From contig JAQGOY010000139.1 in the NCBI GenBank assembly GCA_028293375.1, forward strand, positions 1 to 34,852: a stretch of 34,852 nt of DNA. The letters run 5' to 3'. Under the pieces are notes generated by a model. The model saw only the letters and a list, made by a program, of their open reading frames with translations, was not told the DNA's origin and ran no database searches. The position numbers and the translations under genes were made by a program. Shown here in pieces: positions 1,743-34,056 of the stretch (its first letter is position 1; each line of letters starts with the position of its first letter). The DNA is from Verrucomicrobiales bacterium. GTDB lineage: Bacteria; Verrucomicrobiota; Verrucomicrobiia; Limisphaerales; JAQGOY01.

Positions 1743-4700
1743 AGAGCTTTGGCTTCTTTCTTCCTGGATACCTTCGGCGAAGTAATCTTTTCCTTTTCTG
1801 GTAATTTCTTGAGCGCACGAAATTCGTGGGACAGATCGTCGATCCGGCAAACAGTGAGGTATTTGCAATACTGGCAGGCCGTTACTTTGCCCTCGCGATA
1901 AGGATTGATCTTCACGGAACCGCTGAGGATTTCACGGCCCGCGCTGACCAGGAGATCTTTTGTTTCCCCCAGGAGCCGATTGAAGCCCTCGGTATTCAGG
2001 GAATGATTTTTAGAGCTTTTGAAAGCTGTGCCTGCATTTTCGCTGGAAGGTTCCAGGGATGTCTCTAGGTCATTATTAAATCTGCCGGTCAGAATAAATC
2101 GTTCGCTTTGTTTTTGTTCCATTAACTCACGATTTTTTCCTGAAACACTTTCGCCGCGCAGGTTTCCGTAAAACATCCCGGCCGGGCAGGCTGTTTTGGC
2201 CCCAGCTCGTTCACTGAATTCGGGAATTGCCATAACCGCAGCGAGGTAGGAGGGCAATTGCACTTGCAGGGCGTTGATGAATTTCTTTTCCTCAAATTTT
2301 TTTGCGCTCGATTTGAAATCCAGGATGACGACGTGAAGTTTTCCTGCTTCATCGATCCATCCACCCAGCGAATCGATGACCCCACGCAAGTCGAGCGCCT
2401 TGCCGTCGCCCAAATCCAGGTGCCAGGGGGGGATTTTTAAATCTTTTCGCGTAATATCAATCATTCGACCGTCATCCAGTGAAATCGCATTGTTTTCGCA
2501 GTCGTTTTTCCCGGACAGCCCAAAACCAGTTTCCACGATGAGGGGTTGATAATTGGAGCGCCGAGTCCATTCCGCCAGGAACTGAATGAAAGCAGTTAGG
2601 CGGTCACGGGCCGCTTTGTGTTCCAATCTCGAAAAGGCAGTTTGCCGAACCAGACCCTGTTTGAAGTGCTGGTCGTAATGCTTGAAGAGGTCCCCCAATA
2701 AACGGAGTATCTCCTGATCCGTCACCGTGTTCCATTTAAGATCGAGTTTCCCCAGCAGGTCGTGGAATGCGGAGAGAATCAAATGCTGGTAGGTCCCTTT
2801 GTTACGGGCATCAAATTCTAGTTTTTCCCTTTCGCGCCCTTTGAGCCCGGCATCGACAAAAAACTGGAAGTGGCAGGCAGAAAAGAGTTCCAGTTTGCTG
2901 ATGGAACTTTTGATCACCGAACCGTAGAGGTTGGCGGCCAGTTCCGGGCCTATCGTAGTGCTGGTTTCATCCCTGGAATTGAGCAGAGTGGAAACTCCGT
3001 GGAAGCTGGTGCTCTTCAGTAGCAGGTTAAGTTTTTGAAGATCCTCTTGCGATCCGTTTTGAACAATCCTCCGAATAGGTTCCACCGCGTGCAGATCCTG
3101 ATGCGATAAAAACTCAGCGAAGGACTCTACGGGATTGAGGCGTTTGAGCGGGTACTGGAATTGCGAAGGATTGAGATGGCTCTGGGAATCATCCTGCTGC
3201 GCCCAGGTCACCACGACTTTTTCCCGGCTGCGGGTTACCGCGATATAAAAGAAAAACCGTTCATGGGAACTGAACTCCATTCGACTTTTCTGGAATCCAC
3301 CCAAATGCCGGTTGATTTCCAGGGCCTCTGTTTCAGTGATTAGCCGCGTGTTGGGTGGTGATGCCGGGAATACTCCCTCGTTAAGCCCGAGCACGCAAAC
3401 TAATGAGAGATCTGGATTCCGGGAGCGATCCACCGCCCCGACAAGAACTTCGTCGAGGGTGGGAGGAATAATCCCGACGCTGAGACCGGACAGACCGGCT
3501 TGAAGGAGTCCCACCCATTCGGCCAGGGAGAGTTTCTGCTGTCGAAAAGCCAACCGAACACTCTTTATCCAACTTTCCAATTCGTTCCAGACGGTCTCGT
3601 TAATCTTTTGTAATTTTTCGTCGGAAACGTCGGCGAGTTGCTGCTGAACTTCCAGAAACGACCATAAGGTCTCGAATGCAGTAGCCAGTTCATTGCCGTC
3701 AGGATTTTCCCCAAGTAATCCGTGAAAATGCTTGAGCAATTCCATTTGCCTGGCACGAACTTTATCGGCCGATTCAAGCTCAGGAATCTCGAAGCCTTTT
3801 TTCCAATGGGTTTCCTGCCAGGCGAACCGAAGGGCGAGTGTTTCCAAAGTATCCAGCGAGTAACCGGGCCGGGTCAGATTGGTTTTTAGACAGGCAAACC
3901 ATCGAGCGTGGGTCCATCCGTAGGCAGCCAACTCCAGCGCCGTTTCGGTGAGCCTCACCAGCGGGTGATGACGAATCGGTTTTCGTCGGTCCAGGAAAAA
4001 GGGAATGCCGTATTCGGTGAAAACGCGTGTGATGACGCTGTGATAGGGTTCCAAATTTCGAACCAGCACCGCGCAATCCCGATATTCCCCGCCCGTTTTC
4101 ACGTGGTTGAGGATGGCGCGGGCGGCAACTCTGGCTTCCTCCTCGCGGGTCTGGCATTGCACAAGGGAGATCGCTTGATTCGGCTGGGGCGACACGGGAG
4201 TTGTGGGAACCTCGTTGAGCGCAATGGCACGCTCCAGGATTTGAAGCGCGGGAGCATGGGCAAATCGGTTTTTTGGGTTCGCCGCGCTTAACCATTGAAC
4301 ATCCGGCGCGGTGTTTGTTGCGACTTTAATGCTCTCCAGGCAGCGCAGATAACTGGACTGCGCCACCAGCCATGGGCTAAGCCACGGGGATGTGGTCGTG
4401 GGCGCAGTGTCGAGGCAAAAAGCCAGCACATGTTGTTTCGAACGCTGAAGCACAGCAATGAGAAATTGAAGCTCGCATTGGCTCAGTTCACCAAATCCAT
4501 CCATCCATACGCGTGCGAAGAGCGGTGCGGAAAACGCTGTTTTCAACACGCTTGCCGCAAGGGGCAACAGATCATGGGCATCGGACACTTGGTTCTTTGC
4601 CGTCCATTCGGAGTACAGTTCCAGGATGTGGGCGAGATCAGCAAGCTTATGGGAAAGACGAGAACCGGGCTTATAGTTTTCGGCCAGGGCACGCAGGCTG

Positions 4701-30052: not shown

Positions 30053-30084
30053 AAAAGCCTGCTTCCCTGGAAGCAGGCTTTTTT
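30053..30084 (+). terminator. Strong bidirectional terminator
   Basis: A 13-bp perfect stem (AAAAGCCTGCTTC at 30053-30065 with GAAGCAGGCTTTT at 30070-30082) around a four-base loop, with a TTTTTT tail on the plus strand. The same hairpin ends in TTTT on the minus strand. It separates the convergent small lipoprotein and rny genes and can serve both. Confidence 0.9.
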
Positions 30085-31645
30085 ATTTGGCAAACTCCAC
30101 GCAACGAGTTTCTCGCATTACCGTAATCCGGATCTGGCCAGGATATTGCAATTCTTCTTCGATCTTGCGGGCTATGGTTCGAGCCAGTTTAAAGGCTTGT
30201 TCATCAGTTATGGTGTCCGGTTGAACCATGACACGGAGTTCTCTTCCGGCCTGCACTGCGTAGCACTTTTCCACCCCAGGGAACGAACAGCCGATTCGTT
30301 CCAGGTCTTCCACCCTTTTAATATAGGTGGTCATTGTTTCCGAGCGCGCTCCAGGCCGGGATGCAGACATGGCATCCGCTGCGCTCACCAGGATGCCAAG
30401 AATGCCGATGTGTGGGACTTCGTCATGGTGGGAGGCCACCCCGTTTACCACCTGCTCCGACTCCCCATATCTTTTTACAAAGTCAGCCCCCACGATGGCA
30501 TGGGCTCCTTCGATTTCATGTCCCATCGCTTTCCCAATGTCATGCAGCAACCCCGCTTTTTTTGCAGATTGAACATCGATCCCCAGCTCCGAAGCCATCA
30601 AACCCATCAGGTGAGAGACTTCAACAGAATGGTTCAATATGTTCTGCGAAAAACTGTGTCTGAATCCAAGTCGACCCAGCATTTTCACGATTTCGATGTG
30701 CAGGGGAGGAATGCCAGTTTTCATGACCGCTTCCTCTCCGAGTCGGATAATGGTCTCGTCCATTTCCTGGGTCACTTTGGCGACTACTTCTTCGATTCTC
30801 GTGGGGTGAATCCGGCCATCGAGAATAAGCCGTTCCATAGCCTCTCGGGCAATTTCGCGTCGAACCGGATCAAAACCCGAAAGGACCACGGCATTCGGGG
30901 TATCATCAATCATGACCGTGACGCCGGTCGCTGCTTCGAATGCTCGAATGTTCCGGCCTTCCCTCCCGATGATTCGACCCTTTATCTCGTCGCCAGTAAG
31001 AGCGACGATGGCGGTCGATGTCTCATTGGTATGTTCTCCGGCATAACGCTGAATGGCAGTGCTGATTATGCGACGGGCTTTTTCTTCTGCACGTAGCTTG
31101 GCGTCATCAAGAATGTGACGAACGAGGTGGCCAGCGTCTCTTTGGGCATCTTCCTGCACCTGTTTTAGAAACGCCTCTTTTGCCTCTTGCTCCGTCATCC
31201 GGGTGATCGCTGCCAGTTGGTCTCTGGCCATCTTTTGGTCAGTATTCAACTGTTCTTTTTCGGTGATCAGATTCGCCAGCCTCTCCTTCAAATCTGTCTT
31301 TTGCTGGCGCAGGGTCTTTTCTTCACCCACCAGATTCTCCAATTGCCGGTTTACAAGCGATTCCCTTTCCGTGACCCTGCCTTCGAGGGATGCTAATTCC
31401 TGCCGCCGCGCCGCAAGCACTTTTTCGTGCTCATCACGCATACGCAAAATCTCTTCCGCTGCCTGGAGTCTGGATTCCCTGGTTTTATTCTCCGCTTCCT
31501 TTAGCGTAGTATCGAAGAGGTTCTTTTCCCTCGCGGCAAACTCTACCTTGAGACGTTTCTCCTTTTTTCTGACGAAATAATAAGACACGCCGAAACTGCC
31601 TCCCAAAAGAAGCGCTCCATCGATTAAGAATCGTTCTAACGACAT
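30083..31645 (-). CDS. rny: Ribonuclease Y
   Basis: 520 residues, the same length as Bacillus RNase Y. It has an N-terminal membrane helix and a long coiled coil (about 30-190). Next is a KH domain with GRIIGREGRNIRAFE, then an HD domain with the catalytic pair His368-Asp369 in LLHDIGKA. RNase Y is a membrane-bound endoribonuclease that initiates mRNA decay and matures RNAs. It is 16 bases downstream of fthC, so rarA-fthC-rny form one minus-strand unit that ends at the bidirectional hairpin. Confidence 0.97.
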   Translation of the reverse strand: MSLERFLIDGALLLGGSFGVSYYFVRKKEKRLKVEFAAREKNLFDTTLKEAENKTRESRLQAAEEILRMRDEHEKVLAARRQELASLEGRVTERESLVNRQLENLVGEEKTLRQQKTDLKERLANLITEKEQLNTDQKMARDQLAAITRMTEQEAKEAFLKQVQEDAQRDAGHLVRHILDDAKLRAEEKARRIISTAIQRYAGEHTNETSTAIVALTGDEIKGRIIGREGRNIRAFEAATGVTVMIDDTPNAVVLSGFDPVRREIAREAMERLILDGRIHPTRIEEVVAKVTQEMDETIIRLGEEAVMKTGIPPLHIEIVKMLGRLGFRHSFSQNILNHSVEVSHLMGLMASELGIDVQSAKKAGLLHDIGKAMGHEIEGAHAIVGADFVKRYGESEQVVNGVASHHDEVPHIGILGILVSAADAMSASRPGARSETMTTYIKRVEDLERIGCSFPGVEKCYAVQAGRELRVMVQPDTITDEQAFKLARTIARKIEEELQYPGQIRITVMRETRCVEFAK

Positions 31646-31661: not shown

Positions 31662-32237
31662 TCAAGTTCCAAAGAGCCTCGCGGGAGTCAAAACCCAATC
31701 TAATTTGACATCATGGGCTTCCACAGGGATGTTCGGCAAGATTTGTTCGTCAAATCCTACCCCGCACCTTAACCCGGTGGCTGCGGACAAAAGTCGATCG
31801 TAGAATCCTTTTCCCCGCCCCAGTCGTCTACCTTGCAAGTCAAAACCTAAACCAGGAACTAAAATCATGTCCAGCTGGTTTATGGGGACACAAGCACACT
31901 CCGGTGAAGGTTCTAGGATCTTAAATTGTCCGTATCGAAGGTCGGAGGTGATATGCGAGATCTTCGCTGCACAATATTGTTGGGTATTGGGATCAAATCG
32001 AGGGAGTGAGATCGATTTTTGGTTGTCGGCAAGGTACCCCATTAATTGGCGGATGTCTGGTTCACTGGGCAACGGCATGAAAAGCAGGATGTTTTTTGCG
32101 TATCTCCATTCTTGCCACGCTTCAATTTTCTCCACCAATTTCCTGGAAAGATACTTTTTCTCTTCGACGGTAAGGGCCGCCAATGTTTGCTTCATCTGCG
32201 CTCGGAGTGCAGTTTTGTCTAATATTTCCCGGGTCAT
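31662..32237 (-). CDS. fthC: 5-formyltetrahydrofolate cyclo-ligase
   Basis: 191 residues. The basic substrate and ATP-binding motif GRRLGRGKGFYDR is present in the second half, with LFMPLPSEPDI and MILVPGLGFDLQ before it. The enzyme converts 5-formyl-THF back to 5,10-methenyl-THF using ATP, in the cytoplasm. Its ATG at 32237 overlaps the rarA stop (ATGA), so it is coupled to rarA. In proteobacteria the equivalent gene (ygfA) is next to the 6S RNA gene, which matters for the RNA candidate upstream of rarA. Confidence 0.95.
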   Translation of the reverse strand: MTREILDKTALRAQMKQTLAALTVEEKKYLSRKLVEKIEAWQEWRYAKNILLFMPLPSEPDIRQLMGYLADNQKSISLPRFDPNTQQYCAAKISHITSDLRYGQFKILEPSPECACVPINQLDMILVPGLGFDLQGRRLGRGKGFYDRLLSAATGLRCGVGFDEQILPNIPVEAHDVKLDWVLTPARLFGT

Positions 32238-33640
32238 TTCTTCTGATTTTCTGTGTCGTCACTGCTTTTCTGCCCGGAGGCTCGCCAGTTTGCCAATCTT
32301 TCTTTTATCTTTTTCTCCACCCCCTGGTCGGTCGGTTTGTAATAGACCTGGGGATCCTCCATGTATTTTTGGGCCACAAAGTGATCGGGGTGATCGTGCG
32401 CGTATTGGTAACCCTCCCCATGCCCAAGTCGTTTTGCTCCCATATAATGGGCGTCGCGCAAATGATTGGGAACCGGTTGGGTCCTTCCTTTCCGCACATC
32501 ATCCAATGCGGCATCGATGGCCAGATAGGCACTATTGCTCTTATGCGCGGTGGCAATATAGATGGTCGCTTCGGCGATCGGGATTCGCGCCTCGGGCCAT
32601 CCCACAAATTCAGAGGCATCATGCGCAGCCTTGGCCAACACCAGCGCCATTGGATCCGCCAAACCGACGTCTTCCGCCGCGCAAATCATGATTCGCCGGG
32701 TAATAAATCGCGGGTCTTCGCCCGCATGAATCATTTTTGCCAGCCAATACAGCGCCGCGTCCGGGTCGCTTCCCCGCATCGATTTGATAAATGCCGAAAT
32801 GGTGTCGTAATGGGCATCCCCGTCACCGTCATAGACCACTGCCTTTTTTTGGATGCACTGTTCAGCCACCTCACGGGTAAGATGAATAATTCCTTCCGCA
32901 TCCGGAGGGGTGGTCAGGGCCGCCACTTCCAGCGAATTCAATGCTTTGCGCGCATCGCCGTCCGCCACCCGCGCAAGATGTTCCAACGCTCCATCAGCAG
33001 CTTGAAGTTTCATCGCCCCAAGCCCTCTTTCCTCATCCTTCATCGCCCGCCTCAACAATTCCAACAGGTCATTCTCAGTCAACGGCTGGAGTTCAAAAAT
33101 CTGGGAACGCGAAACCAGGGGGGAGTTAACAAAGAAAAATGGATTGTGTGTGGTTGCTCCAATCAGTCGGATCACACCGCTTTCCACGTCGGGAAGCAGC
33201 ACGTCCTGTTGGGATTTGTTGAAGCGATGGATTTCGTCGATAAAGAGAAGGGTGGATTTTCCAGTATTTTCCAGGCGATTCACCGCCGCCGAAAGGATGC
33301 GCCGCATGTCAGCCACATTGGATTCCACGCCGCTGAGCCGTTCAAATTTATTGTTGGTATGAGCCGCTATAATCTGGGCCAGGGAAGTTTTGCCGGTGCC
33401 GGGGGGGCCGTAGAAAATGAGAGACTGAATTCGGTCGGCTTCGATCGCCCGTCGCAGAAGTTGGCCGGGGGCTAGGATATGACGTTGTCCTGCATACTCG
33501 TCGAGAGTGCGGGGCCGCATCCTCGCGGCCAATGGACGGACCTGGTAGGGGGAATTAGACGGCGGGAGTGCCACCGCAGGATCACGGTCCGAATCTGGCC
33601 CTGGAAGAGAGCTGGCTCCGAAGAGATCCTGATTCAACAT
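32234..33640 (-). CDS. rarA: Replication-associated recombination protein A
   Basis: 468 residues of the RarA/MgsA AAA+ ATPase family. The Walker A motif GPPGTGKT covers residues 78-85 and Walker B LLFIDEIH has Asp136-Glu137. An HRFNKSQQDVLLP segment is followed by GATTHNPFF and SRSQIFEL (sensor/arginine-finger region). The C-terminal part (AAEDVGLADPMAL, AHYMGAKRLGHGEGY) is the family tetramerisation domain. RarA acts at stalled forks with SSB. The ATG at 33640 has a good AGGAG ribosome site. A terminator-like hairpin lies 21 bases upstream. Confidence 0.96.
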   Translation of the reverse strand: MLNQDLFGASSLPGPDSDRDPAVALPPSNSPYQVRPLAARMRPRTLDEYAGQRHILAPGQLLRRAIEADRIQSLIFYGPPGTGKTSLAQIIAAHTNNKFERLSGVESNVADMRRILSAAVNRLENTGKSTLLFIDEIHRFNKSQQDVLLPDVESGVIRLIGATTHNPFFFVNSPLVSRSQIFELQPLTENDLLELLRRAMKDEERGLGAMKLQAADGALEHLARVADGDARKALNSLEVAALTTPPDAEGIIHLTREVAEQCIQKKAVVYDGDGDAHYDTISAFIKSMRGSDPDAALYWLAKMIHAGEDPRFITRRIMICAAEDVGLADPMALVLAKAAHDASEFVGWPEARIPIAEATIYIATAHKSNSAYLAIDAALDDVRKGRTQPVPNHLRDAHYMGAKRLGHGEGYQYAHDHPDHFVAQKYMEDPQVYYKPTDQGVEKKIKERLANWRASGQKSSDDTENQKK

Positions 33641-33649
33641 ACTCCTAAT

Positions 33650-33683
33650 CTAAAGGCAAAGGGGAGGTTGTGACAACCTCCCC
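33650..33683 (-). terminator. Terminator-like hairpin before rarA
   Basis: A perfect 10-bp stem (GGGGAGGTTG at 33661-33670 with CAACCTCCCC at 33674-33683), TGA loop on the plus strand, followed on the minus strand by TTTGCCTTTA. The tail is an imperfect U-run. Its place right after the structured RNA suggests that it ends that RNA, leaving rarA partly dependent on read-through or its own start. Confidence 0.6.
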
Positions 33684-33684
33684 T

Positions 33685-33855
33685 CGGAAAGAAAACCCCA
33701 CCGTAATGCCGTGACAAACAGTTCCTTTGAACATGAGAGAAACAGGTGGAATCCAAACGTAGGCTAACGACTTCCAGTAAAGGCCTGTCGATTACCGCCG
33801 TAGTCAAGACTCCGCATTGAGTATACTTACGGTCCAAGGACTTAGTTTCTTTGCA
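33685..33855 (-). ncRNA. ssrS: Structured RNA, candidate 6S RNA
   Basis: About 170 nt of non-coding sequence whose ends pair. The outer helix is 33845-33852 with 33688-33696 (8 bp, one bulge) and the inner helix is 33827-33833 with 33700-33706 (7 bp). An apical stem has 33784-33788 with 33742-33746 and 33772-33776 with 33747-33751 (5 bp each). Between them lies a large central bubble. A small hairpin (GTTC-CTTT-GAAC, 33721-33732) falls on the 3' side of the bubble, as in known 6S RNAs. Strand is set by the hairpin that follows it and by the promoter-like region upstream. 6S RNA sequesters sigma70 polymerase. Evidence is by-eye folding plus rarA-fthC context, without a covariance search. Confidence 0.5.
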
Positions 33856-33897
33856 CGAACATGGCAGGGTAAAGTCAAAAATTAAAATTTCAAAAGA
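33850..33897 (-). promoter_or_regulatory. AT-rich promoter-like region for the structured RNA
   Basis: On the minus strand a -35-like TTGACT (33873-33878) is preceded directly by an AT-rich stretch (33879-33897) like an UP element. The -10 is unclear; TGCAAA at 33850-33855 has the right 17-base spacing but is weak. UP-like sequence is usual for highly expressed stable RNAs. Confidence 0.35.
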
Positions 33898-34056
33898 ACA
33901 ACTGCGCCCGACACTCTTCATCATCGGGCATCCTGCTGATTTCTCAAGTCAATCTTGGAAGTTTCTTTCGCCTTTTTTATTGAAACTTTTTTTGCTCCCT
34001 GTCTTACCTCTTGCCTTTGCTCCTCATGTTTAGAACAATTCCCGTTTAGGAAAAAT
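33898..34056. other. Intergenic region before gmd
   Basis: Holds no visible gene. Its T-rich stretch (around 33970-34000) precedes gmd, whose ribosome site is AGGA about nine bases before the ATG. A TTGAAA near 33980 lacks a good -10 match, so the gmd promoter could not be placed. Confidence 0.4.

Follow-up and report, generated by a model that had tools for sequence, protein, structure and literature searches.

In bacteria, 6S RNA blocks RNA polymerase; boxA is known mainly from ribosomal RNA operons. In Escherichia coli K-12, fau (fthC) comes after the 6S gene ssrS, and the pRNA of this 6S RNA starts at U44, the basis on which we placed the corresponding start in the locus described here. 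In lactic acid bacteria and in B. subtilis (Firmicutes), 6S adjoins rarA (PMC8414754). boxA also acts outside rRNA, at suhB, and the E. coli Nus complex, which keeps Rho from terminating transcription, is seen as a regulator of rRNA folding (PMC5725501). Here, we compare these systems with a locus of the order Limisphaerales (Verrucomicrobiota), contained in a 34,852-nt stretch of DNA that we refer to as the window.

The 6S RNA gene and its neighborhood

The gap between the start of rarA (33640, minus strand) and that of gmd (34057, plus strand) spans 416 nt, for which a preliminary description of the window had put forward a candidate 6S RNA gene on the minus strand. Searching the window with the Rfam 6S model RF00013, a check named in that description, returned a full-length match in this gap with 60.2 bits (E-value 1.1e-9 for the whole window), above the gathering cut-off of 46.4 bits. 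The strand agrees with the earlier proposal, while the limits of the RNA are corrected to a predicted 183 nt (Table 1). Canonical pairing was present at 41 of the 48 model pairs, and the RF00013 alignment contains the expected helices and bubble of the rod-like RNA, with paired ends and an open center, that had been described. The folding energy is by itself no evidence for 6S (MFE -51.8, z -1.11, with 24 of 200 shuffles as good); that evidence is supplied by the covariance model, the homologues, and covariation.

Matches to RF00013 were found in 81 of the 97 genomes from this order, in 141 of 189 genomes sampled from the class, and in 76 of 145 sampled from the phylum; as the loci are related, such counts over genomes do not represent independent events. 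The genome of the window yielded a single copy (assembly 76% complete, 281 contigs). We then analyzed covariation in a structure-blind MAFFT alignment of the 81 sequences, using the average-product correction. The six strongest of all covarying column pairs were all 6S base pairs, and 11 structure pairs lay above the 0.1% quantile of the non-structure pairs. The compensatory changes that the preliminary description had proposed to look for in its helices were thus seen across the order (for example, A-U 35 and G-C 34 among the top covarying pairs). Most pairs of the closing and internal stems were canonical in 88-100% of the 81 sequences, and the apical arm aligned poorly in parts. The columns of the pRNA template (TCCTTGAACCGTA) were 72-99% identical, reaching 99% at U45 and A46, and in the predicted structure of the window RNA a large single-stranded bubble adjoins this conserved template. 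We conclude that the window almost certainly contains a 6S RNA gene, which extends a known family by a new member from an order that has been little studied.

A 43-bit match without the conserved ends (G074/L076) was excluded from the alignment; since its distance to the downstream rarA is 29 nt, it may be a diverged 6S. Another genome (G066) carries two 6S-like matches, L018 and L078 (70.1 and 38.6 bits), with a boxA-like site upstream of both, so that a second 6S copy is possible there.

Table 1 Features of the 6S locus in the window.
Feature	Position	Strand	Evidence
rny, RNase Y	30083..31645	-	Pfam RNase_Y_N, E 2e-32; HD and KH domains
fthC, 5-formyltetrahydrofolate cyclo-ligase	31662..32237	-	Pfam, E 2e-40; 4-nt overlap with rarA
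rarA (mgsA), AAA+ ATPase	32234..33640	-	Pfam MgsA_C, E 9e-71; adjacent to 6S, same strand, in 52 of 82 places
Second hairpin, GGGGAGGTTG-TCA-CAACCTCCCC, then TTTGCCTTT	33652..33683	-	Sequence; relatives
U-rich tract TTTTCTTT, directly past closing stem	33688..33695	-	Similar tract in 65 of 81 loci
6S RNA gene, 183 nt	33691..33873	-	RF00013, 60.2 bits, model 1-187; covariation
Central bubble, 3' side, ACCUGUUUCUCUCA	33734..33747	-	RF00013 alignment
Central bubble, 5' side, UAAGUAUACUCAAUGC	33814..33829	-	RF00013 alignment
Predicted pRNA, 5'-ACGGUCCAAGGACUU, start opposite U45	33829..33843	+	Placed from E. coli U44
boxA TGTTCTTTTGAAA, 18 nt before the CCCTGCC end of 6S	33888..33900	-	rRNA-derived matrix, score 16.6
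Predicted 6S promoter: -35 CTTGAGA (33948-33942), 16-nt spacer, -10 GATGAT (33925-33920)	33920..33948	-	Promoter scan

The placement upstream of rarA, fthC, and rny was also borne out: Pfam supports all three genes, which are tightly packed in the window, and the order 6S-rarA-fthC-rny was found again in relatives. The gene directly 3' of 6S on the same strand was rarA in 52 of 82 places, usually at a distance of 15-200 nt, and beyond it came fthC, often together with rny, in relatives with enough sequence for comparison. The adjacency was also seen in other classes of Verrucomicrobiota and is therefore probably old in the phylum. The nearest named records by RarA are metagenome assemblies of Limisphaerales / Verrucomicrobia subdivision 3. 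An open reading frame at 33924-33634 (96 aa, minus strand) overlaps the 6S gene and was judged spurious.

Compared with E. coli ssrS, the locus is alike in its full RF00013 match, its length of 183 nt, the closing stem, the bubble, the predicted pRNA start (U45, corresponding to U44 in E. coli), and fthC/fau downstream. It differs in having rarA between 6S and fthC and a boxA in the leader, which was not seen in the stretch viewed at ssrS. As in B. subtilis (6S-1) and lactic acid bacteria, rarA is a conserved neighbor, but there it lies upstream of 6S (in the opposite direction in B. subtilis) (PMC8414754), whereas in the window it lies downstream, on the same strand as 6S. The locus thus unites both known 6S neighborhoods, that of rarA in Firmicutes and that of fthC/fau in E. 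coli. Each of these was already known (PMC8414754 for rarA), and the significance given to the locus in the preliminary description needs adjusting: the link that it drew between a global regulator, folate repair, and RNase Y is one of gene neighborhood, and any regulation among them would be conjecture.

The leader and the 3' end of the 6S gene

The AT-rich upstream element noted earlier is real, and is better described as a boxA followed by a spacer (33900-33874). We scored it with a matrix built from the 16S/23S sites of the order alone, using as thresholds the scores exceeded by 1% and 0.1% of 7972 control windows. The rRNA sites, of TGCTCTTTGAAAA type, come from six genomes of the order, in which they occupy 16S leaders and 16S-23S spacers, often after a hairpin. 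The score in the window (16.6) was attained by 0.013% of the control windows. Across the order, 62 of 81 6S leaders contained a boxA above the 1% threshold, where 0.8 were expected, and 49 exceeded the 0.1% threshold, with an expectation of 0.08. The upstream flanks of the relatives, otherwise unalignable, have the motif tgyTCTTTGraaa in common, located 4-58 nt (median about 19) ahead of the 6S end.

The motif was present in 40 of 51 leaders with an adjacent rarA and in 22 of 30 without; its frequency is independent of rarA, which indicates that it belongs to 6S. Applying the same matrix to genes for RNase P RNA (30), tmRNA (29), and SRP RNA (28) of the same order yielded none of 87 above the 0.1% threshold and three above the 1% threshold; we therefore rejected the idea that stable RNA genes carry a boxA in general. 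No boxA above the 1% threshold was found in 19 of the 81 leaders of the order, nor at 34 of 63 6S genes in other orders of the class, and it was again found upstream of 6S in other classes (13 of 23). Its absence from those 19 leaders and from many other verrucomicrobial 6S genes shows that it is not essential to 6S. Overall, boxA is very probably a real, conserved element of the 6S leader. A link between 6S RNA and boxA was not found in the literature searched, whose scope did not extend to the main 6S surveys; co-mentions of NusB with 6S looked incidental, as judged by title and abstract.

The rrn leaders of the order present the same 13-nt motif ahead of a structured non-coding RNA, sometimes preceded by a hairpin. 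In contrast to these, the 6S leaders have a weaker hairpin and no boxC-like stretch, and the RNA that follows is about 0.2 kb long rather than several kb. We accordingly rejected a complete nut site with boxB, boxA, and boxC on the pattern of these rRNA leaders: the hairpin just 5' of boxA is weakly enriched across the order (mean z -0.70), and the boxC-like stretch is not conserved in 6S leaders. A boxA as such does not require these flanking elements. This stretch was evident in six 16S leaders (L163-L168), which share TTGAATTGTGCGAT right after boxA, a sequence that the 6S leaders lack. The boxA of suhB in Enterobacteriaceae likewise lies outside rRNA operons; it resides in an mRNA leader and represses, whereas that of the window precedes a regulatory RNA gene (PMC5725501).

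At five loci (L042, L054, L063, L066, and L082), a long spacer between boxA and 6S (36-58 nt) holds an extra GC-rich hairpin, by which the effective distance may be kept. Elsewhere in the genome, exact matches to the boxA pattern occurred at 13 sites, compared with five for the reversed control; they fell mostly inside open frames, and nothing coherent was found among them. One boxA-like site (L268, G000 contig 71, about position 3930), some 64 nt ahead of an open reading frame whose product looks like a secreted repeat protein, may be due to chance.

The predicted promoter stands 5' of boxA, and the leader that it would give in the window is about 40 nt long. Of the 81 loci of the order, 59 have CTTGAG at a distance of 59-143 nt before the 6S gene (2.6 expected), often with a GATAnT-like hexamer 16-18 nt further on. 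Given this conserved promoter upstream of it, boxA is probably transcribed, as far as can be judged from the sequence. A terminator scan reported a hairpin at 33930-33905; it overlaps the predicted -10 and is therefore probably not a transcribed terminator, and for the same overlap it was not used as a boxB. Family f72 (L195, L197, L202, and L205-L207) and other families of the class have a TTTGACG-type promoter that abuts 6S, and no boxA. Sequence comparison thus points to two 6S promoter designs in one phylum: one gives a long leader that includes boxA, and in the other the promoter directly adjoins the mature RNA.

At the other end of the gene, at least six T in the 9 nt after the closing stem were found in 65 of 81 loci, compared with 0.7% of random places, and the U-rich tract together with the closing stem is probably the terminator. 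The terminator-like hairpin that had been noticed after the RNA is real as well, with a perfect 10-bp stem (33683-33674/33670-33661) and TTTGCCTTT next to it. Several relatives show similar hairpins and T-runs, making it a candidate back-up terminator or a candidate hairpin of the rarA leader.

Alternative explanations and a proposed mechanism

The tight packing of rarA, fthC, and rny, and the position of rarA, which mostly begins about 15-200 nt after 6S on the same strand where the two adjoin, would suit a boxA that serves these genes through readthrough of the 6S terminator, with one transcript for 6S and the operon. However, boxA is equally frequent where rarA is missing, and a strong U-tract follows the closing stem of most 6S loci, and we consider such a role quite unlikely. 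TCTTTG could instead act at the DNA level, within a proximal 6S promoter, rather than as an RNA boxA: it precedes the mature RNA by a median of about 19 nt, and the promoter abuts 6S in f72-type loci. Against this, its spacing to 6S varies over 4-58 nt with no -10 at a fixed distance downstream, it matches the 16S/23S leader boxA of the same order, and a separate conserved promoter stands upstream of it; we regard the promoter explanation as improbable.

An ordinary 6S gene might also have retained the motif as a leftover of an old rRNA-like promoter region, with no present function. This would fit the lack or weakness of boxA in roughly a quarter of the order, as well as in several verrucomicrobial families, but less so the retention of its core in very diverged loci, where flanks are unalignable and spacing varies, and its presence in other classes (13 of 23); we judge it unlikely. 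Finally, the RNA itself might be taken for an Ms1-like RNA binding the polymerase core, or for a non-functional 6S relic, given that polymerase binding by the window RNA is itself predicted and that 60.2 bits is a moderate score. Yet this score exceeds the 6S gathering cut-off, the pRNA template and bubble are conserved, and the helices covary, all of which leaves such an identity hardly credible.

Our preferred explanation is a 6S RNA whose leader carries a working boxA. Transcription would start at the conserved CTTGAG ... GATAnT promoter and yield a leader with an rrn-type boxA. NusB, which is encoded in the genome, would bind this boxA together with S10 and join the elongating polymerase, as in rRNA leaders. 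The Nus complex on the leader may keep Rho off the untranslated 6S transcript, and may hold the 5' arm close to the polymerase while about 180 nt more are transcribed, so that the rod closes once the 3' arm emerges; the leader would then be removed. The folded rod, its open central bubble imitating a melted promoter, would bind the housekeeping RNA polymerase holoenzyme and be released as the polymerase copies a short pRNA from U45. Taken as a whole, from the 6S identity, pRNA release, and promoter to the boxA leader, Nus action, and leader removal, we find this explanation likely. For the step in which synthesis or folding of 6S would depend on Nus, we see the case as about evenly balanced.

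What is new here is the boxA in the 6S leader, as the 6S gene and both of its neighborhoods are of known kind. More tentatively, and with somewhat more doubt than confidence, we suggest that in much of Verrucomicrobiota the Nus/boxA machinery of rRNA may help make 6S, that the amount of 6S may thereby be coupled to free NusB/S10, and through these to ribosome synthesis, and that the Nus complex may chaperone the folding of a regulatory RNA outside rRNA. If the boxA leader is functional, it would place 6S RNA and rRNA under one antitermination and folding system, offer a short, testable substrate (about 0.2 kb) on which the Nus complex would act as an RNA chaperone, and directly link ribosome production to global inhibition of the polymerase.
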